Position numbers and translations under genes: made by a program. Below, one piece after another: positions 1,026-50,491 of a stretch of 50,491 nt of DNA (within the stretch, counting starts at the first letter, position 1; every line of letters starts with the position of its first letter). The notes below the pieces were generated by a model. That model was given only the letters and a program-made list of their open reading frames with translations. It ran no database searches and had not been told where the DNA came from. The DNA comes from Bacilli bacterium (lineage in GTDB: Bacteria; Bacillota_I; Bacilli_A; RFN20; CAG-826): positions 1-50,491 of the forward strand of contig JAQWCH010000007.1 of the NCBI GenBank assembly GCA_028705995.1. Reading direction: 5' to 3'.

Positions 1026-1841
1026 TTAGCCAAGGGCGACATCTAAAACCATCATAATTGCGAAACCGGCCATCACACCAAAAGTGCCAAGATGTGGATT
1101 TTCTTCTGAGTTCGCCCCAGGAATTAATTCTTCTGCTACAACATATATCATCGCCCCAGCAGCGAATGCTAATAACCAAGGTAATAAAACAACAATTTCG
1201 AAGGCCAAAAAGAAACCAACGACGGCAAATACCGGTTCGACAAGACCAGAAAATGCTCCAAGATTAAAAGCGCGCCGGCGAGAACCTGTTTCAGAAAATA
1301 GCGGCATCGACACTGCCGCACCTTCTGGTAAGTTTTGAATAAACATACCAATAGCTAAGGCCATTGCTCCGATTAACGTCATTGATGTCGTCGCGTGTTG
1401 CTCTTGTAAAGCTAAAGCCGCCCCAAAAGCAAACCCAACAGCAAGTCCTTCGGGGATATTATGAATCGTCATCGCTAAAAACAATTTCCAACCTCGTGAT
1501 AATTTGCGTGTGTGGGGTCCTTCTTCTTCGTTGGTTGCGCCGTGTAAGTGCGGCACTATTTTATCAATTGCAAATAGAAACAAACCCCCACAAAGAAAAC
1601 CAATTAAGGCCGGTAACCAAGCAACATTTTCAAATGGGCTCACTGTTTCTGCTTGTTCGATGGCCGGAATTAGTAATGACCAAACACTCGCGGCAATCAT
1701 CACACCAGCGGAAAAGCCTAAAAATATTGTGTTCAACTGGGAAGGAATGCGTTTTTTAAAAATAAACACAAAAGCGGCCCCAATTACTGTTCCAATACCG
1801 CCTAACGATAAACCAATAATAATTAATAATTCATCACTCAT
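1026..1841 (-). CDS. ZIP family divalent metal transporter (GufA type)
   Basis: A 271-residue multi-spanning membrane protein of the ZIP family, which imports zinc or other divalent metals into the cytoplasm. About eight hydrophobic segments are visible. The two metal-binding helix motifs are present: HNIPEGLAVG in the central region and QNLPEGAAVS in the next helix; the Gln in place of His in the second is typical of GufA-type bacterial members. An acidic and His-containing loop (PHLHGATNEEEGPH) lies between the third and fourth helices, as in many ZIP proteins. The ATG at 1841 is chosen over one 13 codons upstream because GGAG lies 8 bases before it. It follows the cardiolipin synthase gene by 22 bases and may be co-transcribed. 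Metal specificity cannot be read from sequence. Confidence 0.88.
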   Translation of the reverse strand: MSDELLIIIGLSLGGIGTVIGAAFVFIFKKRIPSQLNTIFLGFSAGVMIAASVWSLLIPAIEQAETVSPFENVAWLPALIGFLCGGLFLFAIDKIVPHLHGATNEEEGPHTRKLSRGWKLFLAMTIHNIPEGLAVGFAFGAALALQEQHATTSMTLIGAMALAIGMFIQNLPEGAAVSMPLFSETGSRRRAFNLGAFSGLVEPVFAVVGFFLAFEIVVLLPWLLAFAAGAMIYVVAEELIPGANSEENPHLGTFGVMAGFAIMMVLDVALG

Positions 1842-1863
1842 ATAAAGTTCTCCGTGTTCTGAA

Positions 1864-3492
1864 TTAGAAAAATGTTTCAAACATCCGCATGACCCACCCG
1901 ATGAGGCGAGAAAAAACGCTAAATGTTTTAATCTTTTCTAAAGTGATTTTTTCGCTCATTTGGAGCGTTTTTTGATAGTCATCTTCAATCACCTTAGCAA
2001 TAGCGGGATCATAACAAACAACACCATTTTCGTAATTTAAGTAAAGCGAGCGAAAATCGAAGTTTACCGAACCAATAGTGAAAAATTGATCATCGCTGAC
2101 TACAACTTTAGCATGATTAAACCCCGGTGTATATTCGTATATCTTAATTCCAGCATCTAATAGTTCTTTATAGTAAGAACGCGCAACCAGGAAAGGTATT
2201 TTTTTATCAGGAATCGCCGGCATTATAATCACAACATCAATTCCGCGTTTCGCAGCAAATAAAAGGGCTTGGAGCAAGCGATCATTAAGCACTAAATAGG
2301 GGGTGTGGATATGATAATATCGCTCAGCATTCGCAAGTAACGAGAGGTAGATATTTTCGCCTGGGTTTTCGCGGTTTTCAGGTGCATCGGTATACGGTGT
2401 AACAAAGTTACGGGCGGGATATTTCACTTCGCGATATTCAGCTAAATATGGTTCAACAATTTGTGGTTTCTTGCTGCGAATTGACCACATATTGATAAAA
2501 TTTATTGTTAATGCATTGACCGCCGAGCCTTCAATTTTCAAAGCCGTATCTTTCCAATGGCCAAAGCGTTCGTACTGATTGATATATTCATCAGCAAGAT
2601 TTATTCCACCAACAAAACCCACACGACCATCAATTACAAGAATTTTGCGGTGGTCACGGTTATTCTGATAAGAAGATACCACCGCCTTAATTGGGGCAAA
2701 TACACGGCATTTAATTCCAAGTTTACGCATTTTCTTATAATAATTTCGGGGCAATGAAGTAAAAGTATTAAAGCCATCGTACATCAATCTTACTTCGACA
2801 CCACTAGCGACTTTGGTTTTTAAAATTTCGAGTATCTGATCCCACATCACCCCAGGTGTAATAATAAAATATTCGAGAAATATGAACTTCTCAGCCTTTT
2901 TTAATTCCTCTAATAAGTCCGGGAAAAAAACATCACCAAGCGGATAAAACTCCAAATTATTATCTTGATAAGTCGAAGCCGCACCATAATTTTCAAGATA
3001 TTTACATAACCGTGCATAACGGGGTAACTGTTTTTGTAAATTTTGTTTCACAGCTGCGTCTTGTTCATGATAATGTCTTGTTTCAGAAACCTTTGCCGTT
3101 AACATGCGTGAAACTGTCCGGGCGTTTGGAATAATTTGAATAAACAAGAACAAAAGTGATCCTAAAACCGGTAGTAAAGAAATAACAACTAACCATACAA
3201 TTTTATACGAAGGATCAATCCGGCGGTTCAATGTCACAATTGTTAAGATAATCCGTAATAAGAGATCGATTCCAACCACGATAATTAAAAGCCAAAACCA
3301 AACTTGCGATTCATGCCAAATATAAATTACTCCAGCATATACCGCAAAAATCATAATCACAATTTGCAGCAACACCAAGGAGATAGTGAGTGCCATTTGA
3401 TTAAGAAAAATACGTGTTAATAGTGATCGCGGATGGCGAGAAGGATGCTTGTTGTTTGTCATAATTAATCGTTTACATTTATATTTTATCAT
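1864..3492 (-). CDS. cls: Cardiolipin synthase (phospholipase D superfamily)
   Basis: This membrane enzyme joins two phosphatidylglycerol molecules into cardiolipin and glycerol. The 542-residue product has two or three N-terminal transmembrane helices (PLDc_N region, about residues 30-120) and then two phospholipase D domains with their HxKxxxxD motifs: HRKILVID followed by GFVGGINLADEY, and HAKVVVSD followed by GSVNFDFRS. The length is slightly above the usual 480-510. The extra residues are at the N-terminus, where a second ATG (MTNNKHPSR, 3462) could be the true start; neither ATG has a clear ribosome site. It is transcribed divergently from the agmatinase gene and ends 22 bases before the ZIP gene. 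The family call is firm; the start is uncertain. Confidence 0.93.
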   Translation of the reverse strand: MIKYKCKRLIMTNNKHPSRHPRSLLTRIFLNQMALTISLVLLQIVIMIFAVYAGVIYIWHESQVWFWLLIIVVGIDLLLRIILTIVTLNRRIDPSYKIVWLVVISLLPVLGSLLFLFIQIIPNARTVSRMLTAKVSETRHYHEQDAAVKQNLQKQLPRYARLCKYLENYGAASTYQDNNLEFYPLGDVFFPDLLEELKKAEKFIFLEYFIITPGVMWDQILEILKTKVASGVEVRLMYDGFNTFTSLPRNYYKKMRKLGIKCRVFAPIKAVVSSYQNNRDHRKILVIDGRVGFVGGINLADEYINQYERFGHWKDTALKIEGSAVNALTINFINMWSIRSKKPQIVEPYLAEYREVKYPARNFVTPYTDAPENRENPGENIYLSLLANAERYYHIHTPYLVLNDRLLQALLFAAKRGIDVVIIMPAIPDKKIPFLVARSYYKELLDAGIKIYEYTPGFNHAKVVVSDDQFFTIGSVNFDFRSLYLNYENGVVCYDPAIAKVIEDDYQKTLQMSEKITLEKIKTFSVFSRLIGWVMRMFETFF

Positions 3493-3565
3493 TATTTAAA
3501 ATTATTGTCGGCACACTGAATAATTATACTAGTATTTATGTATAAAAAATTATAAATTGTATGCG

Positions 3566-3594
3566 TTGTAAATTTATTAAAATATTTGTAAGAT
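3566..3594 (+). promoter_or_regulatory. Candidate promoter of the agmatinase operon
   Basis: TTGTAA (3566-3571), a 17 base spacer and TAAGAT (3589-3594) form a reasonable sigma-A promoter. Transcription would begin only about six bases before the ATG at 3607, leaving almost no 5' leader and only a weak GGTG as ribosome site. Confidence 0.45.
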
Positions 3595-3606
3595 TATGGT
3601 GAAAAT

Positions 3607-4491
3607 ATGAAAAAGTTTCGTGATCTATTAGCTAAAGATATCGAGAGCGCTAAAGTGATTATTGCAGGGCTCCCTTTTGATGACCATGCTTCGGTTGGTA
3701 AAGGTAGTGCATTAGCACCCCTAAAAATCCGTAAGCTCTCGGCAGATCTCCCTCCCTTTTCGCGCGATGGTATTGATATACGTGATTTTCCTATTTTCGA
3801 TTATGGGGATTTTTCATCTAATGACTTTAGTGAGATTACCTTAGCCGCTCAAACGCTTTTTAAGCGGGAGCGGTTTTTGCTTTTTATTGGCGGTGATCAT
3901 TCGTATACGATTCCGCTGATTCCCGCTTTTATTCAAGATGCAAAGAAACGGAAGAAAACACCGGTTCTCATTCATATTGATGCCCATCCTGATATTTGTG
4001 ATGTTTATCATGGCTCAATGTTCTCGCATGCTTGCCCTGTTCGTCGTTCAATTGATGCTGGTATTAAAACCGAAAACATTGTTTTAATTGGAATTCGCGG
4101 TTATGAAGCGCAGGAAGTTTCATATTTTAAAGAACATCCCGAGATTTCCGTTTTTAATGCCTCGACACTGCTTAAAGATGGGATTGATCGTTTATTAGCG
4201 CGCCTCGCTCAATACCAAAAAGATGAATATGATGTTTATCTTTCCTATGATATCGACGCTAATGATCCATCTTACGCGCCGGGAACAGGAACACCGGAAG
4301 CTTTTGGTCTACCTGCTCCAATGACACTGGAAATTATTTTATCAATCATTGCTAAGCTTAATGTCCGGGCGATGGATTTAATGGAAGTTGCGCCCCCCCT
4401 TGATACAAATGATGTAACAACGTGGCTTGCTTTAAAAACAATATACGAGATATTTGCATGCTTAAAAGAAAAGGAGAAAACTGCTGCATGA
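3607..4491 (+). CDS. speB: Agmatinase (ureohydrolase family)
   Basis: A 294-residue ureohydrolase that is expected to split agmatine into putrescine and urea in the cytoplasm. The binuclear manganese ligands are all visible: GGDHS (His98), HIDAHPD (Asp125, His127, Asp129) and SYDIDANDP (Asp215, Asp217), followed by APGTGTPEAFG, the conserved substrate-loop region. The segment DVYHGSMFSHACPVRR resembles agmatinases rather than arginases or formiminoglutamases. The stop codon overlaps the start of the next gene in ATGA, so the two are translationally coupled. The neighbour is a SpeD-like pyruvoyl decarboxylase, which fits a polyamine pathway. Guanidinobutyrase or another guanidino substrate cannot be excluded from sequence alone. 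Confidence 0.85.
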   Translation: MKKFRDLLAKDIESAKVIIAGLPFDDHASVGKGSALAPLKIRKLSADLPPFSRDGIDIRDFPIFDYGDFSSNDFSEITLAAQTLFKRERFLLFIGGDHSYTIPLIPAFIQDAKKRKKTPVLIHIDAHPDICDVYHGSMFSHACPVRRSIDAGIKTENIVLIGIRGYEAQEVSYFKEHPEISVFNASTLLKDGIDRLLARLAQYQKDEYDVYLSYDIDANDPSYAPGTGTPEAFGLPAPMTLEIILSIIAKLNVRAMDLMEVAPPLDTNDVTTWLALKTIYEIFACLKEKEKTAA

Positions 4492-5840: not shown

Positions 5841-6944
5841 TTAGCCTGCTCTAATATCGTGATCGAGTTCTTCATCCCATAAGGTAACACGATTACGACC
5901 TTCTGCCTTAGCATGATAAAGCGCAACATCAGCTTGGGAGATAATTGTCTCGTGTTGACCACGGACGTGTTCGTCACAATTAACTAATCCGATACTAATC
6001 GTAATTGGATCTTGATCGACAGGGATTGTCATTGTTTCTAAACGAATCAATTCGGCGATTTCAAAAGCTTCTTCTTTGTTAGTATCATAAACAAGTGCAA
6101 CAAATTCCTCGCCTCCATAACGATAAAAATATATTGGATATTTATTTTGATAGTTAGCAAGAAAATTACCAAATGATTTTAAATACTCGTCCCCCACACG
6201 GTGGCCATGTTGATCATTATAATTTTTGAAATTATCAATATCGATCATCATTAATGCTGAAGGACATTTAGTTGTTCCGTCTTCGAATTGATGAATCGTT
6301 TCAAATAGTTTCCGCCGATTGTTCAATCCGGTTAATACATCTGTTTCTTTTTCTAAAATTAATTGATAACGGATTTCAAACGTTTCAAGCCGACTACGTA
6401 GAAAAAGGCGTCCAAATAGAATGCCGAGTGCAAGCGCGATAAAACCATTAAGTAAATCAACACCTCCAAGGATTGCACCTTTATAGATGTAAGAGAAAAC
6501 TGTATAAATAACATAAAAAGCTGTGATAAGCAAATTAAAGCGGAACGGGTTATCAATGAATAAGAGTGAAATCAAAGCAAAGAAAACAAGAATTGTCCCG
6601 CCGGGGTATTCTGGATAGATAAAAACACCTAGATAAAAAACTAGTGAAAAAGCAATTAAAACTAATAAATATGCACCAATTAAAGCGTATTTTACCCTTT
6701 TTAAAACACTAAATATAACTAACAACAAAACAGATGATAGACAAGCCGCTAAATACGCGGGAAAAGCAACATACATATTTGGACGAAATAGCGAAATAAT
6801 TGATGGAATAAGTGTGATTACGCTAGCAATCCATAATGCTTCTGGTACGACTTTAGCATTATATTCTTTGATCGAAACTTTATGTTTTTTTAAAAGCTGC
6901 GAGAGCTGCCTCGGCTCAAGAAAAAGCTTCATTTTTTCAGTCAT
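5841..6944 (-). CDS. Membrane-bound diguanylate cyclase (GGDEF domain)
   Basis: A 367-residue protein with about six transmembrane helices (residues 35-185) and a C-terminal GGDEF domain that should make cyclic di-GMP from two GTP. The active-site loop is YRYGGEEF, an active form of the motif. DVLTGLNNRR and MIDIDNFKNYND supply the conserved start of the domain and the metal-binding aspartates. The inhibitory RxxD site normally found five residues before GGEEF is absent (the region reads KYPIYFYRY), so product inhibition through that site is unlikely. The N-terminal membrane part is not a sensory domain I recognise. GAGGGGG precedes the ATG. No phosphodiesterase or PilZ gene is in the window. 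Confidence 0.9.
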   Translation of the reverse strand: MTEKMKLFLEPRQLSQLLKKHKVSIKEYNAKVVPEALWIASVITLIPSIISLFRPNMYVAFPAYLAACLSSVLLLVIFSVLKRVKYALIGAYLLVLIAFSLVFYLGVFIYPEYPGGTILVFFALISLLFIDNPFRFNLLITAFYVIYTVFSYIYKGAILGGVDLLNGFIALALGILFGRLFLRSRLETFEIRYQLILEKETDVLTGLNNRRKLFETIHQFEDGTTKCPSALMMIDIDNFKNYNDQHGHRVGDEYLKSFGNFLANYQNKYPIYFYRYGGEEFVALVYDTNKEEAFEIAELIRLETMTIPVDQDPITISIGLVNCDEHVRGQHETIISQADVALYHAKAEGRNRVTLWDEELDHDIRAG

Positions 6945-7421: not shown

Positions 7422-9071
7422 TTACACGGATATAGAGTTTGCTAAACGATTATGGTATTCGTTAAATGTATTCACACCTTCAAACGATGAATTTGAATCG
7501 ATATCACTACCAACACCTTCATAATTAACGCGATAGCGATTATAAAGCGTTTGGAAGTTTGCTTTTGAAAACACATCGAGATTAAATAGTCTTTGTACTT
7601 CTAAAAGATATTGATCTTGATACTTTTTGATTAATGGATAATCATTCGACCAATTAATGTCGCCACTAGCTTCTTCGATAATTAAATACCAATATAGAGG
7701 ATTACTTTGATATAGTTGATCACCGATATGGCGCTCCGTATGTAGTGGCGATATTTCCGCCATTTGTAAGCCGCCAAAATTAGATTCTGGTATCCCAATT
7801 CCTAAAGCCCAGTCATTATCATAAGGAATAAACGCAACTTGCGATGTTCCACTATCAAAGTACATATAGTAATTATTAAAATTATTTCTTAAATCATCCG
7901 GATTACCAACAAGATAGGCGGCCGCCGCATAGCGGATAAAAGCCGATATGTCGATTGTATTTTGTAGGCGATTTTCCACTTCATTTTCCGAAAGGCATTT
8001 TGATTCATTGATTGCTCGAAGAAAATTAATTAGTCCTAAATGATTAGTGGTTGATTTGTTGGTTTTAATCTCATAAGGCGGATATACATAATTAACTAAA
8101 TCTTCTTTACCAATCCAATTTGACTTTGGTGTATAGACGCCACCATTAACATCAACAGCATCATATAAATTAAGACTTGCGGGACCTGTTTTATTATAAG
8201 TTGCCTTATATAGGTCACCAACCGCAGTTTGATCAGGAATAAAGCGTTTAATTAAGGTGCTATCAATCACTTCATTTAAAATATAAACACCCATATTGGT
8301 TGGTCCCATCACAATTTGACCAAGTGTGGAACGTGGGATATAGAGTAAACCCGTGACTTCACTACCAAAAAAACGATTAATGAAGGGCTGCGACATAATC
8401 GCGGGATCATTTGATTTATTCCATTTAACATCAATCTTTTTCATACCAAATAAAGTGCGGTCATCACGTTCAAGATAGGCAGCATCAGCACTGGTCCAAG
8501 TCTTATAGAGATCAAATTGTTCGTAAACAACATCGTCCCATAATTCATTGAACGATATTTTGAAATTTGCTGCTTGTTCAATCGTGCCCTCCGGCGCAAA
8601 ATCAACCCGTGATGTATTTCCTTTCATTCGCACACCGACTTCAGGAAAAGCATAATCGCGCCCATTCATCGTTAGTGTAAGATCAGCGGGGAAATAATAA
8701 TCATTGGAAGGTGAATTTTTATCTTTGCCATTCTCAGAAATTCTTTGAATATTTGTTTGATTAATATTCAAATCGAGTTTGATTTTAGATGAAGAATCCC
8801 AAAACTCATAATATTCTTCGCTATTGGTTTTATCGGCCCCCAGGGGTTGATAACGCTCATCCACGGGTTCGTAATTGTGATTATCACTCGTAATGAGCGT
8901 TGATTGCGAAGTTGCGCTATCTTCGGTGGAAATTGTAACCGAGTTATCCTCACTTTCACTTGCGATATTACTAGTTACACTCTCGTTACTAAGTGGTGGC
9001 AAAGATAAAAAAGTTGATAAATCACAACTTGTGAGTATTAGGGTAATTGGTAGTAATAAGATTTTTTTCAT
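7422..9071 (-). CDS. CotH-family kinase-like lipoprotein
   Basis: A 549-residue exported lipoprotein. The N-terminus is a lipoprotein signal peptide ending in a lipobox (LILTSC, Cys16), followed by a Ser/Thr-rich linker to about residue 70. The remainder resembles the CotH family, atypical protein kinases first known from Bacillus spore coats: GVRMKGNTSR (compare RxRGNS) in the first half and NNYYMYFDSGTSQVAFIPYDNDWALG, with the conserved Asp residues, in the second. The protein would sit on the outer face of the membrane. Its substrate is unknown; CotH relatives are often found next to secreted or surface proteins rather than spore genes. GGGAG lies 7 bases before the ATG. It is not part of an obvious operon. 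Confidence 0.8.
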   Translation of the reverse strand: MKKILLLPITLILTSCDLSTFLSLPPLSNESVTSNIASESEDNSVTISTEDSATSQSTLITSDNHNYEPVDERYQPLGADKTNSEEYYEFWDSSSKIKLDLNINQTNIQRISENGKDKNSPSNDYYFPADLTLTMNGRDYAFPEVGVRMKGNTSRVDFAPEGTIEQAANFKISFNELWDDVVYEQFDLYKTWTSADAAYLERDDRTLFGMKKIDVKWNKSNDPAIMSQPFINRFFGSEVTGLLYIPRSTLGQIVMGPTNMGVYILNEVIDSTLIKRFIPDQTAVGDLYKATYNKTGPASLNLYDAVDVNGGVYTPKSNWIGKEDLVNYVYPPYEIKTNKSTTNHLGLINFLRAINESKCLSENEVENRLQNTIDISAFIRYAAAAYLVGNPDDLRNNFNNYYMYFDSGTSQVAFIPYDNDWALGIGIPESNFGGLQMAEISPLHTERHIGDQLYQSNPLYWYLIIEEASGDINWSNDYPLIKKYQDQYLLEVQRLFNLDVFSKANFQTLYNRYRVNYEGVGSDIDSNSSFEGVNTFNEYHNRLANSISV

Positions 9072-11962: not shown

Positions 11963-12403
11963 TAATCATCCCCCGATTAAAGCGCGAGATATAAAATCGA
12001 CAACTTGTAGGATTACTGAATTAGAAAGGAGGTAAAGAGTATTCTGCTACAAAGTTGCGAGCCCGCTAAACTGCAGGTGCCTCATATTAACACCAAATAA
12101 ACAATAGACAAGTAAAAATATTTCAAAAACTTAATGTAAGCGTTTTCGTGTTTTTTTTACCTATTTTAATTCTTTTTTTGAAAAGCACTTATACTTTTAT
12201 GCGATTATCACGATACTCAGTTCTCGATTGATAAAGTTTAGTTTCCTTAATGGATTTTGATAAAGCAAAAATTTATTTATATATTTAAGAATTGTTTTTC
12301 AAATAGCTAGAACCTAATCATTTTAATCCCTGGTACGATGCTGTATACTATGCCTTACTGTATAGATTATTACTCTATCAATTCTTCGTTCGAGGTATAT
12401 GAA
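11963..12403. other. Intergenic region upstream of the secreted nuclease gene
   Basis: About 440 bases without a supported gene. It holds a perfect ribosome-site sequence AAAGGAGG at 12025-12032 that is not followed by ATG, GTG or TTG at a normal distance, a cre-like box at 12135-12148 and AT-rich sequence. The only frame at the right distance begins with ATT at 12041 and runs 19 codons to TAA at 12098-12100. Confidence 0.45.
12135..12148 (+). promoter_or_regulatory. cre-like operator upstream of the secreted nuclease
   Basis: TGTAAGCGTTTTCG matches 13 of 14 positions of the CcpA box TGWAANCGNTNWCA, differing only in the last base. It lies about 255 bases before the nuclease start, so it would fit carbon control of extracellular DNA use if the promoter lies near it. 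No clear promoter was found to anchor it. Confidence 0.42.
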
Positions 12404-15022
12404 ATGAAACTACACTTAAAATTTACGAAAAATGTTCAGCACTCGATGTTTGTTTTTCTTTTTACAAGCCTAACTTTCTCTTTATTAAGTTCAGTTAATT
12501 ACCGCCAACCTATCCATCTGGAAGCAGCAATTCCATCAAGCGGCATCAACGCGACTAACTTGACGGATATCGAAGTAAATGCCTACTATCAGCAAGCAAA
12601 TGTTGATGGATTAACAGGCGAAGCGTTAAAGAGTGCTTTACACAATTTGATTGATGACCATAGCACAGTTTCTTATGATGGCTTGAAAACGGCGATGAAG
12701 ATTACTGATCGCGACTGGGCATCATCACCACTGACAAGTGCGGAGTTAAGTACTTATACCCATAACGATGATCCTAATTTAGATGTTTTTTATAGTAATA
12801 GCACAATAAAATCAAGTAATATTGGTTCTTCCGAAAACACGTGGAACCGCGAACATACTTGGGCAAAATCACATGGTAATTTTGGTGAATCATCACCGGC
12901 AGGAACAGATTTGCATCATTTGCGCGCGTCAGAAGCCTATTATAATAGTAAACATGGAAGTCTTGATTTCGGTGACACTGGTTGGACTCCGCCATATGTA
13001 AATGATAAAGGCGATATCGCGCGCATGATTTTCTATATGCCGGTTAGATATTTTGAATTTATCAGTGTGGCAGACCCTAAACTAGAAATCTTAAATTCGA
13101 AAACATCTGGGAATACTGCTTCAAGTACGGTTACTGGAAAAATGGGAATTCTTGATGATTTACTCGCATGGCATTATGAAGATCCCGTTGATGATTTTGA
13201 AATTCATCGGAACAATCTTATTTATAATAATTATCAATATAATCGTAATCCGTTTGTAGATCATCCAGAATGGGTCGATATGATTTATGATTCTTCTTAC
13301 TCAGGACCAGGGGCAAGTACAGCGGCTGGTACATCGAGTGTCGGTGATGGTGTGATTAATAGTCCTTTAACCAGCATCACTATTGATACGACTGATGTCC
13401 AAACAAGTTTTGATCAAGGTGAAGCTTTTAATAGCTTAAACCTTATTGTCACCGCTCATTATGAAGATAGTACTTCCCAGGTTATATCAACATACACGAC
13501 TTCACCAACAAGCGGTAGTTCACTAAATACAAGCGGTAATCAATCAGTCACTGTCACTTACAGTGAAAATGGTATAAGCAAGTCGGCAACTTACACAATT
13601 AGTGTTTCCGTAAAAACAGTTATTGGTATTAGTGTCTATGCATTACCAACAATAACACAATATGCGGTTAATGAAACTTTCAATAGCAATGGCCTTTTAG
13701 TTCAAGCAACCTATGATGATAATGCGACTGGTTGGATTAATGATTATGTTTTAAACCCTGCTAACGGCAGTGAGTTGGGTAATATTGGTAATCAAACAAT
13801 TCAAATAACAGCAGCTGGTCAATCCACGTCGTTTACGGTCGCAGTTGGTCAACTTTCAACGCTTTTAGCGACACCGAGTATTACAACTGTCGCTCTCGGT
13901 GAAACATATGTGGATAATGATATTGAACTTATGGCCACCTATAGCGCCCCTAATATAACTTCCTTTACACGAAATATTGAAACATTCTCGATTACTGGTG
14001 AAGTTAACACCGCAGCACTTGGAACCTACATACGAACTGTTAGTTATGACGGTTTATCGACGACCTTTTCGGTTAAAGTCACCAATGTTGGAGCTAACGC
14101 TGGGGAAAATGAGCCCGCATCAAATCTATTTATTTCCGAATATGTGGAAGGCAGTAGCAACAATAAAGCAATTGAAATTTACAATGGAACTGGTGCTTCT
14201 ATTGATCTAGGTGCTTTCGAAATTAAAATATATGCTAACGGCAATACAACACCGATTAATACTTTTTCACTCGCAAGTACTACTCTTGCTAATGAAGCGA
14301 CTTATGTTGTAGTCAATAGTAGCGCTTCCGCAGCTTTAAAAAGTGCCGCTGATTTATTAACTGGGTCTTTATCACATAATGGTAATGATGTGATTGAGCT
14401 TGTAGAAAACAATGTTGTGATTGAACGCATTGGAACTATCGGTGATAGCAATGTTTTTGCCGAAGACGTCACCCTCGTCCGTAAATCAACAATCGCCGAA
14501 CCAACTACTATTTATGATGCGAGTGCGTGGGATACTTATCCGAGTGATACATTTACTAACCTCGGTACACACACTTTTAGCGGCGGTAGTGCAACCTTAA
14601 CTCCGCTAGAACAAGCCACGGCGTTTAGCGTATATTTCCTTGAACTGACTAGCGATGTTTGTGTTTTAAATGGAACCACGAATCAAAGCGCACTGATGGT
14701 TGTTTGGCAAGAACTCGCAAATGAATACGCACCAATGGCGGGTGATAGTAAAGATATCATTTTCAATGCAATTGCCGATGATAGTAGTAGCGATTCCATC
14801 GCCCAAGCAAAAGCGCGTTATATTTATATTATTGAAAAGTATCAAGCTGAATATACGAACTTTCTGGAAGATGCTGAAGGAACTAAATTAATGCTTGAAG
14901 TAACACATTTTGTACCAAGTACATCTTTAGAAATTTCCACGCATCTTCTATTGTTAATTATTCTAATTATTTTCTTCTCAACAATAGTTTATTATTTTTA
15001 TCGAACACGCCAAAAACAATAA
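12404..15022 (+). CDS. Secreted, membrane-anchored endonuclease I with Ig-like and lamin-tail domains
   Basis: An 872-residue exported protein. A signal peptide (about 1-41) is followed by an endonuclease I domain (about 45-310) of the His-Me finger type: TWNREHTWAKSH (catalytic His151) and GTDLHHLRASEAYYN, with RNNLIYNNYQYNRNPFVDHPEW at its end. Three bacterial immunoglobulin-like repeats follow (about 318-540), then a lamin tail domain (ISEYVEGSSNNKAIEIYNGT, about 545-695), a helical segment with AKARYIYIIEKY, and a C-terminal membrane helix with a short basic tail. It should degrade DNA outside the cell while tethered to the membrane; no LPxTG sorting motif is present. GAGG lies 8 bases before the ATG at 12404, which is preferred to upstream starts. 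A partial paralogue lies at 48778-50491. Confidence 0.9.
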   Translation: MKLHLKFTKNVQHSMFVFLFTSLTFSLLSSVNYRQPIHLEAAIPSSGINATNLTDIEVNAYYQQANVDGLTGEALKSALHNLIDDHSTVSYDGLKTAMKITDRDWASSPLTSAELSTYTHNDDPNLDVFYSNSTIKSSNIGSSENTWNREHTWAKSHGNFGESSPAGTDLHHLRASEAYYNSKHGSLDFGDTGWTPPYVNDKGDIARMIFYMPVRYFEFISVADPKLEILNSKTSGNTASSTVTGKMGILDDLLAWHYEDPVDDFEIHRNNLIYNNYQYNRNPFVDHPEWVDMIYDSSYSGPGASTAAGTSSVGDGVINSPLTSITIDTTDVQTSFDQGEAFNSLNLIVTAHYEDSTSQVISTYTTSPTSGSSLNTSGNQSVTVTYSENGISKSATYTISVSVKTVIGISVYALPTITQYAVNETFNSNGLLVQATYDDNATGWINDYVLNPANGSELGNIGNQTIQITAAGQSTSFTVAVGQLSTLLATPSITTVALGETYVDNDIELMATYSAPNITSFTRNIETFSITGEVNTAALGTYIRTVSYDGLSTTFSVKVTNVGANAGENEPASNLFISEYVEGSSNNKAIEIYNGTGASIDLGAFEIKIYANGNTTPINTFSLASTTLANEATYVVVNSSASAALKSAADLLTGSLSHNGNDVIELVENNVVIERIGTIGDSNVFAEDVTLVRKSTIAEPTTIYDASAWDTYPSDTFTNLGTHTFSGGSATLTPLEQATAFSVYFLELTSDVCVLNGTTNQSALMVVWQELANEYAPMAGDSKDIIFNAIADDSSSDSIAQAKARYIYIIEKYQAEYTNFLEDAEGTKLMLEVTHFVPSTSLEISTHLLLLIILIIFFSTIVYYFYRTRQKQ

Positions 15023-48777: not shown

Positions 48778-50491
48778 TTATGCTTCACTACTTTTTTTGC
48801 TGAAACTATAGAAAAGGAAACCAAACAATATAAAGCCCGCAATTATAATAATATAATTTTCAAATTCAGCCGTAAAATAATCATTTGGCGTTTGTCTTGC
48901 GTTTAATATATTCCCTGCCCCATCATCGATAAACGCCACTAAAGAATACTTATTAATCAAGTACTCATATCTTGCTTTTGCCGCCAGTATATATTCATTG
49001 GTCGAATTATAATAAAATGCATACTTAGTTTCCGCGCTCATATAGGAATATTCTACTTGCAAATAACTCCAAGGCGAATCTCCGCCATTGAGCACACTGC
49101 AATAGGGCGCAGTTTCATCAAGAAGAAAATGAGCATAGGCAAGCGCTTGATCCAGGTGATATTTTTCAGAATCTATGCTTGTACCAATGAATGTGTGTAA
49201 TCCAATATCGCTTGTGGTATCATTTGCGTATACTTCCCACTCACTCCAAGTAAACACCGTATTTGGCTCACTAACAGTTTCTGTTCTACGTAATGTTTTA
49301 TCAACAGTTGAACCTGCTCCATTACTCGCTGTTCCAGTCCATGCCGAACCTGGATCACTACCAATCACACCAATTAAATCAATTAAGATATCATTTTTAT
49401 ATAAACCAATCGCGTCATCACCGTTAAAGTTAGTAACGCCACTTGTGATATCTGATTGTGATGTTATGTCCACCAAATCAGCACTGCTATAACTAATTAC
49501 ATAAACATCATTATTTTGAATGTTTCCAGTTAAATTTAGCGTTGTTACTGGAGAAGTCGCTCCATTTGAAAATAAATGTACTGAATAACTCGTTAATGAT
49601 TTCTCTTCACCTGTACCATTATAGATTTCAAGCGCTTTGTTATAACTACTACCCTCAATATATTCCGAAAAAAATAAATCATTTGTTGTTGCAATGGGTT
49701 GGCTTGCGTTTAAATTAGTCACAGTTAATGTAAACGATGTCGATAATGATTTATGTGTAACATTAATTAAATTCGCACCAAGATTTTTTGTATCATAAAC
49801 ACCAAAAGACAAATCAGCATTGGCCACATTTTCAGTAAATGTCCCATTTGCTGTTGTATATGAAAAACTACCGCTAATGATTGAATTATCAAATTCAGCG
49901 TTGTAAGCAATTGTTGCATTCGCTGGTGACAATGTTAAATTTTCTTTTGCGCCAACAAAAACATTAAAAGTTGTTGTTAGAGCGTCGACTGTGACAGTAA
50001 CAACATTAACACCAACAGTATTCAAAACAAGTGACGAACTGCCATTGATTGTTAGTGTATAATTCGCTACCGTAACTATGTTGTTATCGCTCTGCGTGCC
50101 AGTTATTACCAATCCAGTTGGGTCTAATGTCGCACCAACATAATAATCGACTTTACTTGGATTATTAGTTACACTAATACTTACTAAATCAGTTGGATCT
50201 ACTACGCCTAGACCAACTGATGATGATTCAGGGGCAACTGATGCTCCACTACCAGAATAACTAGTATCATATGCGATGCGCGCCCATTCTGGATGATCAA
50301 TAAACGGATTGCGATTTAATTGATAGTTATTAAAGATTAGATTATTTCGGCGAATTTCATATTCATCAACTGGATCAAGTTCGTTCCATAAAAGCAACGT
50401 TTCTAAATCACCCGCTAAGCCGGATTGTGTATTAGATGCGACGATTGCGCTTGGTGAACCATTAACTAATTCAAGTTTGGGATGTAAGACA
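48778..50491 (-). CDS. Secreted endonuclease I/lamin-tail protein, 3' part (second paralogue)
   Basis: The reading frame is open to the window edge, so the 5' end with signal peptide and catalytic motif is missing. The visible 570 residues begin with VLHPKLELVNGS and the end of the endonuclease I domain (DEYEIRRNNLIFNNYQLNRN, then PFIDHPEW), aligned with the same region of the protein at 12404-15022. Two immunoglobulin-like repeats, a lamin tail domain (LFFSEYIEGSSYNKALEIYN), a helical domain with AAKARYEYLINKYS, and a C-terminal membrane helix with a basic tail follow in the same order as in the paralogue. It should be a membrane-tethered extracellular nuclease. The domain call rests partly on the paralogue since the NREH motif lies outside the window. 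Confidence 0.87.
   Translation of the reverse strand, partial: VLHPKLELVNGSPSAIVASNTQSGLAGDLETLLLWNELDPVDEYEIRRNNLIFNNYQLNRNPFIDHPEWARIAYDTSYSGSGASVAPESSSVGLGVVDPTDLVSISVTNNPSKVDYYVGATLDPTGLVITGTQSDNNIVTVANYTLTINGSSSLVLNTVGVNVVTVTVDALTTTFNVFVGAKENLTLSPANATIAYNAEFDNSIISGSFSYTTANGTFTENVANADLSFGVYDTKNLGANLINVTHKSLSTSFTLTVTNLNASQPIATTNDLFFSEYIEGSSYNKALEIYNGTGEEKSLTSYSVHLFSNGATSPVTTLNLTGNIQNNDVYVISYSSADLVDITSQSDITSGVTNFNGDDAIGLYKNDILIDLIGVIGSDPGSAWTGTASNGAGSTVDKTLRRTETVSEPNTVFTWSEWEVYANDTTSDIGLHTFIGTSIDSEKYHLDQALAYAHFLLDETAPYCSVLNGGDSPWSYLQVEYSYMSAETKYAFYYNSTNEYILAAKARYEYLINKYSLVAFIDDGAGNILNARQTPNDYFTAEFENYIIIIAGFILFGFLFYSFSKKSSEA

Follow-up and report, generated by a model that had tools for sequence, protein, structure and literature searches.

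Vvn and the other endonuclease I proteins of Vibrio are small periplasmic or extracellular enzymes. Wall-less cells such as Mycoplasma, which carry membrane nucleases, take nucleic acid precursors from outside, according to the accessible parts of three reports (PMC12115388, PMC4807054, PMC3585158). Ca. Izemoplasmatales and the family CAG-313, small-genome relatives of the Mollicutes, are described in the available text of a further report as having several extracellular nucleases, one of which is large and combines nuclease with lamin tail domains (PMC8289736). That Izemoplasmatales live by salvage from extracellular nucleic acid has been demonstrated or argued, and such a way of life has been remarked on in the family CAG-313 (PMC8289736, PMC8397711, PMC10470597); two of these sources deal with growth on DNA (PMC8397711, PMC10470597). 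The pairing of a PF04231 nuclease with a lamin tail domain (LTD) is also found in Draconibacterium, Tenacibaculum, Planococcus, Mesobacillus and Syntrophosphaera. The nuclease/lamin-tail fusion as such is therefore not new, and both such fusions and feeding on DNA by wall-less Bacilli are already known.

The window, i.e. the whole stretch of DNA that was analysed (50,491 nucleotides), is the complete contig C5 of a draft genome of 1.02 Mb in 34 contigs that is 95% complete. It encodes a nuclease that resembles Vvn in its fold and its E-H-N site but is large and multidomain, has a single cysteine and is predicted to be tethered to the membrane. The genome is like those of Ca. Izemoplasmatales and CAG-313 in having several putative extracellular nucleases and a nuclease-lamin tail protein, whereas the loci described for those bacteria cluster nucleases with transporters and the copies found here are spread over four contigs. 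The protein also carries a module of about 85 residues, here called CT, of which the accessible descriptions of Izemoplasmatales and CAG-313 make no mention. The membrane nucleases of Mycoplasma are likewise surface nucleases of (here probably) wall-less cells, but the families named in the titles of those reports are others (SNase, RE_AlwI), and no CT-type module is mentioned in the available parts of those reports. Domain order varies among the fusions of the five genera named above, none of which has CT. In two Bacteroidota relatives (L071 and L080) a layout of nuclease, Ig-type domains and LTD is closed by the type IX sorting domain PF18962, a slot filled in the window protein by CT and a membrane helix. 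Shewanella ExeM (NF033680) is alike only in the lamin tail region (residues 573-764 against 24-213 of the model); the score of 137 bits against a cut-off of 1300, with no match to the rest, does not identify the window protein as ExeM.

We consider it probable that the gene encodes a tethered extracellular EndA/NucM nuclease that feeds nucleoside salvage in a very small, probably wall-less cell, presumably of the Bacilli type, and that bears CT as a display module of its lineage. The N-terminal helix would export the nuclease and the C-terminal helix would hold it outside, with the Big_3 domains as a stalk and with the lamin tail domain probably helping to hold the substrate. The E150-H151-N181 site would cut DNA, and perhaps RNA too; other enzymes would convert the fragments to nucleosides, which an ABC importer would take up. 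Such import is proposed because de novo purine and pyrimidine synthesis appears to be missing from the cell. CT would be a lineage-specific display module shared by many surface proteins.

Domain architecture and active site

A preliminary description of this DNA had named a signal peptide, an endonuclease I domain, three Ig-like repeats, a lamin tail domain and a C-terminal helix, and all of these structural features were found (Table 1), which confirms that observation. In the Pfam search the 872-aa protein matched Endonuclease_1 with 118.4 bits (cut-off 25), LTD with 51.9 bits (34.3) and Big_3 with 37.1 bits (21.2); each of the three Big_3 stretches, taken singly, passes an E value of 1 and none passes 0.001. 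The full-length AlphaFold model has a helix at either end of the protein. The reading frame is already open from 12338, and the ATG at 12404, the start given earlier, is retained because GAGG lies 8 nt upstream and a hydrophobic helix follows directly.

Table 1. Coordinates in the window of the surface nuclease gene, its parts and the second copy
Feature	Position	Strand	Basis or remark
Surface endonuclease gene	12404..15022	+	872 aa plus stop; GAGG at 12392-12395
N-terminal hydrophobic helix, putative export signal (residues 9-30)	12428..12493	+	sequence, AlphaFold model
EndA/NucM (Endonuclease_1, PF04231) catalytic domain, Vvn fold	12614..13270	+	Pfam, structure comparison
E150-H151 of NREH motif	12851..12856	+	alignments of 18 and 36 rows
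N181, aligned to Asn of GEVN in Vvn	12944..12946	+	alignment
Best-scoring Big_3 stretch of three (residues 494-559)	13883..14080	+	Pfam
Lamin tail domain (residues 570-678)	14111..14437	+	Pfam, structure comparison
CT, undescribed helical juxtamembrane module	14591..14875	+	profiles, AlphaFold model
C753, strongly conserved in CT; no other cysteine in the 872 aa	14660..14662	+	alignment
C-terminal membrane helix (residues 846-871)	14939..15016	+	hydropathy, AlphaFold model
Second copy: nuclease domain end, two Big_3, LTD, CT, membrane helix	48778..50490	-	Pfam, profiles; 5'-truncated at contig end
CT module of second copy	48919..49167	-	profile match
127-base repeat, assembly break	50365..50491		identical (inverted) to start of contig C29

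Both the alignments and the structure comparisons placed the catalytic domain in the endonuclease I family. E150, H151 and N181 do not vary among 18 aligned rows, which include four genes of the same genome, and E150-H151 hardly varies across 36 rows that include the truncated second copy; within the NREH motif of relatives, R is often K or Q and N is often D. We take E150-H151 to be the catalytic Glu-His pair and N181 to be the metal-binding Asn of the EndA/NucM site, its counterpart in Vvn, the Asn of GEVN, being presumably a metal ligand. The model of the nuclease domain (pLDDT 70-97 in most blocks) aligned with Vvn (1ouo) along 156 residues, with a Z of 14.7, an rmsd of 2.5 and 23% identity, and the five rows that followed 1ouo were also Vvn or Vibrio endonuclease I structures. 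The lamin tail domain aligned with human lamin tails at a Z of about 8. Foldseek with the full-length model returned no E value below 0.001, whereas the second aligner gave the clear Vvn and lamin matches. Profile, E-H-N site and predicted Vvn fold together assign the protein to the EndA/NucM endonuclease I family (PF04231), and a profile score above the cut-off together with the lamin Ig-like fold assigns the LTD to PF00932.

One alternative is that RNA, not DNA, is the main substrate. A PF04231 match exists in Bacillus subtilis, and one B. subtilis member of this family has been described as an extracellular RNase. The closest solved structures, on the other hand, are those of Vibrio endonuclease I proteins and include one in complex with double-stranded DNA, and RNA as the main substrate is regarded as improbable.

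Further nuclease copies and proposed nucleotide salvage

The preliminary description had claimed a collinear partial paralogue at the far end of the window, and this was borne out. Of Endonuclease_1 the second copy retains the final ~40 positions; it also has two Big_3 stretches, an LTD and a hydrophobic helix near its end. Its identity to the window nuclease, with which it is collinear, is 34% in residues 406-866 and 56% in residues 223-327. Contig C5, all of which is the window, ends within this copy and leaves it partial; it is readable only from residue ~223, the NREH region lying beyond the contig end. A third copy, of 220 aa, lies on contig C29 and is cut at the same point. The last 127 bases of the window are identical to bases 1-127 of that contig (L010, G000:C29), within 211 bases of 94% identity, and it looks as if the assembly was broken at this repeat. 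The second copy continues into Big_3, LTD, CT and helix, and the C29 copy into a Big_3-like stretch that scores 17.2 bits, under the cut-off of 21.2, and then a hydrophobic stretch at its terminus; it has no LTD, and the search of the genome with a CT profile gave no match there. The two genes thus share an upstream part but differ in their stalks, which suggests a recent duplication or gene conversion. A simple tandem of the C29 and C5 copies was rejected, as each copy is followed by other genes.

A search of the genome for further copies, as proposed earlier, yielded six PF04231 loci on four contigs, of which four (one on C5, one on C11 and two on C15) are complete and have NREH. The CT match of the C11 nuclease is weak (E 0.001). 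The C15 pair are short PF04231 proteins (L009, G000:C15, 3143-4006 and 5517-6479, minus strand), and both look like lipoproteins, with a Cys after the hydrophobic start as judged by eye. The missing CT match on C29, the lipoprotein-like C15 pair and the weak C11 match indicate that a nuclease can be anchored in the absence of CT. Tandem pairs of nuclease genes on the same strand occur in the loci of five relatives (L216, L217, L219, L220 and L040).

Several observations concern the surroundings and ends of these genes. In five loci of family relatives (L019, L020, L028, L030 and L037) the nucleases end in an extended tail, rich in Lys and Ser, that comes after a hydrophobic helix and seems to be another kind of anchor than CT. 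The gene between the two C15 nucleases resembles RimO/MiaB by eye. Near the 941-aa nuclease of C11, a 770-aa protein (L008, G000:C11, 4744-7056, minus strand) has by eye the look of an exported protein with BspA-type leucine-rich repeats.

Nucleases of this kind are widespread in the family to which the genome belongs. A relative of some part of the window nuclease is present in 89 of 96 family genomes, and PF04231 was found in 53 of 57, at 1 to 10 places each, a single gene sometimes counting as two places. PurH was found in none of the 57 family genomes, the present one included (12 of 14 control genomes were positive), and PyrF, found in all 14 controls, was absent from the present genome and detected in three of the 57. 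PF04231 is missing from two of the three PyrF-positive genomes as against 2 of the 54 PyrF-negative ones (Fisher p 0.011), an association that is not independent because both PyrF-positive genomes concerned come from one genus (g9). The two PyrF-negative genomes without PF04231 are G001, which is only 66% complete, and G051, a true exception that has neither PyrF nor PF04231.

A candidate route of uptake is a four-gene ABC operon on contig C4, which encodes a Bmp-family binding protein, an ATPase and two permeases. Bmp proteins bind nucleosides. The ATPase and permeases come closest to NCBIfam models of putative vitamin B6 and sugar importers, with every score below cut-off, and no NCBIfam model matched the binding protein; Bmp was found in 29 of the 57 family genomes. 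The multi-copy nucleases, the missing PurH and PyrF and the putative importer fit nucleoside salvage from extracellular nucleic acid, and the data link absent nucleotide synthesis with multi-copy surface nucleases across the whole family.

Alternatively, the nucleases might serve the clearance of biofilm or mucus DNA, defence against incoming DNA, or competition, with nucleotide gain secondary. Biofilm and neutrophil-trap roles have been reported for extracellular nucleases elsewhere, as far as the accessible literature goes, but with purine and pyrimidine synthesis genes not found and PF04231 present in nearly every family genome, mostly at several places, such a primary role is judged quite unlikely.

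The preliminary description had proposed that the tethered enzymes may allow extracellular DNA to be used as food or nucleotides to be scavenged, and that an upstream cre-like box fits nutrient control. The intact site, the six loci, the lack of PurH and PyrF and the candidate Bmp importer favour the predicted tether and the scavenging. The second part of the proposal did not hold: the cre-like box is present with one mismatch, but the window contains 12 such matches where chance predicts 12.2, and cre-box regulation was rejected. Scans for promoter-like sites gave fewer matches than shuffled sequence (6 against 12.3), and terminators showed no excess (2 against 2.5).

Cell envelope and the CT module

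The only match to the Mur ligase family (PF08245) in the genome is FolC (302 bits, cut-off 163), while the family was found in 12 of 14 controls, and no sortase was found in any of 92 family genomes, the present one included (3 of 14 controls were positive). From the missing Mur ligase and sortase in a 95% complete draft, it is probable that the cell is wall-less. Missing Mur ligases would agree with CAG-288 or CAG-826 as the family. Known sorting signals were also searched for. The window nuclease had no match to the LPXTG-type signal model at E values up to 1 and none to the type IX sorting domain PF18962 in Pfam; among 62 CT carriers, TIGR01167 (LPXTG_anchor) matched two and Loki-CTERM matched one, all weakly.

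CT is predicted to be helical, lies between the LTD and the membrane helix, and contains a strongly conserved Cys and Trp. Pfam searches of CT, at E values up to 1, assigned no family to more than 2 of 52 copies, and the sole NCBIfam match of the window protein reaches residue 764, through its lamin-tail part. No description of CT was found in titles and abstract openings of the literature, though one may still be published. Two profiles were built, A3 from eight copies and A6 from 52 rows, the latter being 52 of 58 non-redundant copies with six more divergent ones left out, including one without Cys. The columns of the A6 alignment average 30% identity; C and W do not vary at all in it, and A, Y and F hardly vary.

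Within the genome, A3 matched four places, namely the window nuclease, the second copy, an LTD protein on contig C17 and, weakly, C11. Among 147 genomes of the order, A3 found CT in 53, of which 50 belong to the same family and three, all borderline, to family f3; among 395 genomes of the class, A6 found it in 29, with 27 in the same family and two borderline ones in f3. Many genomes of the family had no match to either profile. As nearly all sequences in the two profiles come from this family, distant relatives of CT elsewhere may be missed. In a set of 80 named loci that contain PF04231 relatives, CT occurs only in L040 (an Erysipelotrichia MAG, which was the best match of that scan), twice.

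The position of CT was examined in a set of 66 copies with E values below 1e-6, which consists of 60 places (the best 66 of 138 from the A3 search of the order, minus three from the same genome and three skipped) plus those of the window, C17 and L040, and which includes one fragment and three near-identical proteins. A hydrophobic helix follows CT in 63 of the 66 carriers, with a net-positive end in 62 of these 63, and the tail after CT measures 39-81 residues (median 50; 40-62 in 61 of 63). Of the other three carriers, one has borderline hydropathy, one is cut by the locus end and one has a short end. The partners of CT are diverse. In 62 of 68 CT-matching proteins (three fragments, two near-duplicates and the truncated second copy were left out), Pfam, with multiple matches possible, found PF04231 in 25, Big_2 in 26, Big_3 in 20, Peptidase_S8 in 9, LTD in four, GDSL lipase, CE2_N and CBM26 in two each and a solute-binding protein in one. 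Given this distribution and position, we read CT with its helix as a putative surface-display module of the lineage.

How CT might act in display is a separate question, for which the most likely of three readings is a passive helical neck, i.e. a spacer that would keep the domains off the bilayer, its sequence constrained by packing and its Cys hidden inside; taken by itself this reading has not quite an even chance. It agrees with the location of CT directly before the membrane helix. In the AlphaFold model of the CT region (four rows, mean pLDDT 67.9) CT forms four helices before the membrane helix. The same region has a pLDDT mostly under 60 in the full-length model. The fold search with this low-to-medium-confidence model revealed no convincing fold relative (best Foldseek E 1.9; best PDB sequence match E 0.0032). 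Two points speak against a mere neck: a C and a W that are invariant in such diverse rows seem to go beyond the needs of a plain spacer, and other anchored nucleases of the genome manage without CT.

A second reading, held to be rather unlikely, is that CT is a docking or recognition module: it would guide different enzymes of the surface, perhaps by way of its Cys, to one membrane partner or processing enzyme that they share. The same module is carried by nucleases, subtilases, esterases and a binding protein, and in the two Bacteroidota relatives a sorting domain occupies the same place. Of possible partner or processing enzymes only sortase was sought, however, and it was not found in the 92 family genomes. 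The Cys, which docking might use, is present in 65 of 66 CT copies (one Cys in 52, two in 11 and three in two); because C753 is the only Cys of the 872 residues, no disulfide can form within the window nuclease. Against this, the CT Cys is the sole extracellular Cys in just 13 of the 66 carriers, the others having further Cys, so that an intraprotein disulfide is possible in most, and one CT lacks the Cys.

The history of the module bears on docking as well. The best tree of 65 CT copies requires 15 changes of the nuclease label, against a mean of 20.6 in shuffles, of which 5 in 500 gave so low a number; at least five changes are forced by the starred branches alone. The tree has few columns and 26 of its 61 inner branches are open, which weakens this support. 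Subtilases counted as 'other' in the labelling because the motif rule detected none. Judging by these label changes, CT has apparently moved from one partner type to another, while copies on like partners cluster to some degree. It is unlikely, although a third reading would have it so, that CT and its helix form the targeting and attachment signal of an undescribed sortase-independent display system, swapped between nucleases, proteases and other enzymes, in which CT would use its Cys to join, or become modified, at the membrane.

For the small-genome Bacilli orders RFN20 and ML615J-28, the available text of one report argues from the lack of sortase that fewer surface proteins are probable (PMC10868615). 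If the present family is of that kind, CT offers another answer to the lack of sortase, i.e. a shared module beside the membrane anchor of multi-domain enzymes, and a single CT profile would be a simple handle for listing the surface proteins of such uncultured bacteria.

Three further genes were noted. The CT protein of contig C17 (L214, G000:C17, 4477-6489, minus strand) has Big_3, LTD, CT and a terminal hydrophobic helix but no nuclease domain, and may bind nucleic acid at the cell surface; it adjoins a SecDF-like gene at 1607-4243. In the window, the minus strand encodes a CotH kinase family protein at 7422-9071 (66.5 bits, cut-off 23.8), whose start resembles by eye that of a lipoprotein although the cell is probably wall-less, and a protein with a GGDEF diguanylate cyclase domain at 5841-6944 (120 bits), in a genome of 1 Mb.
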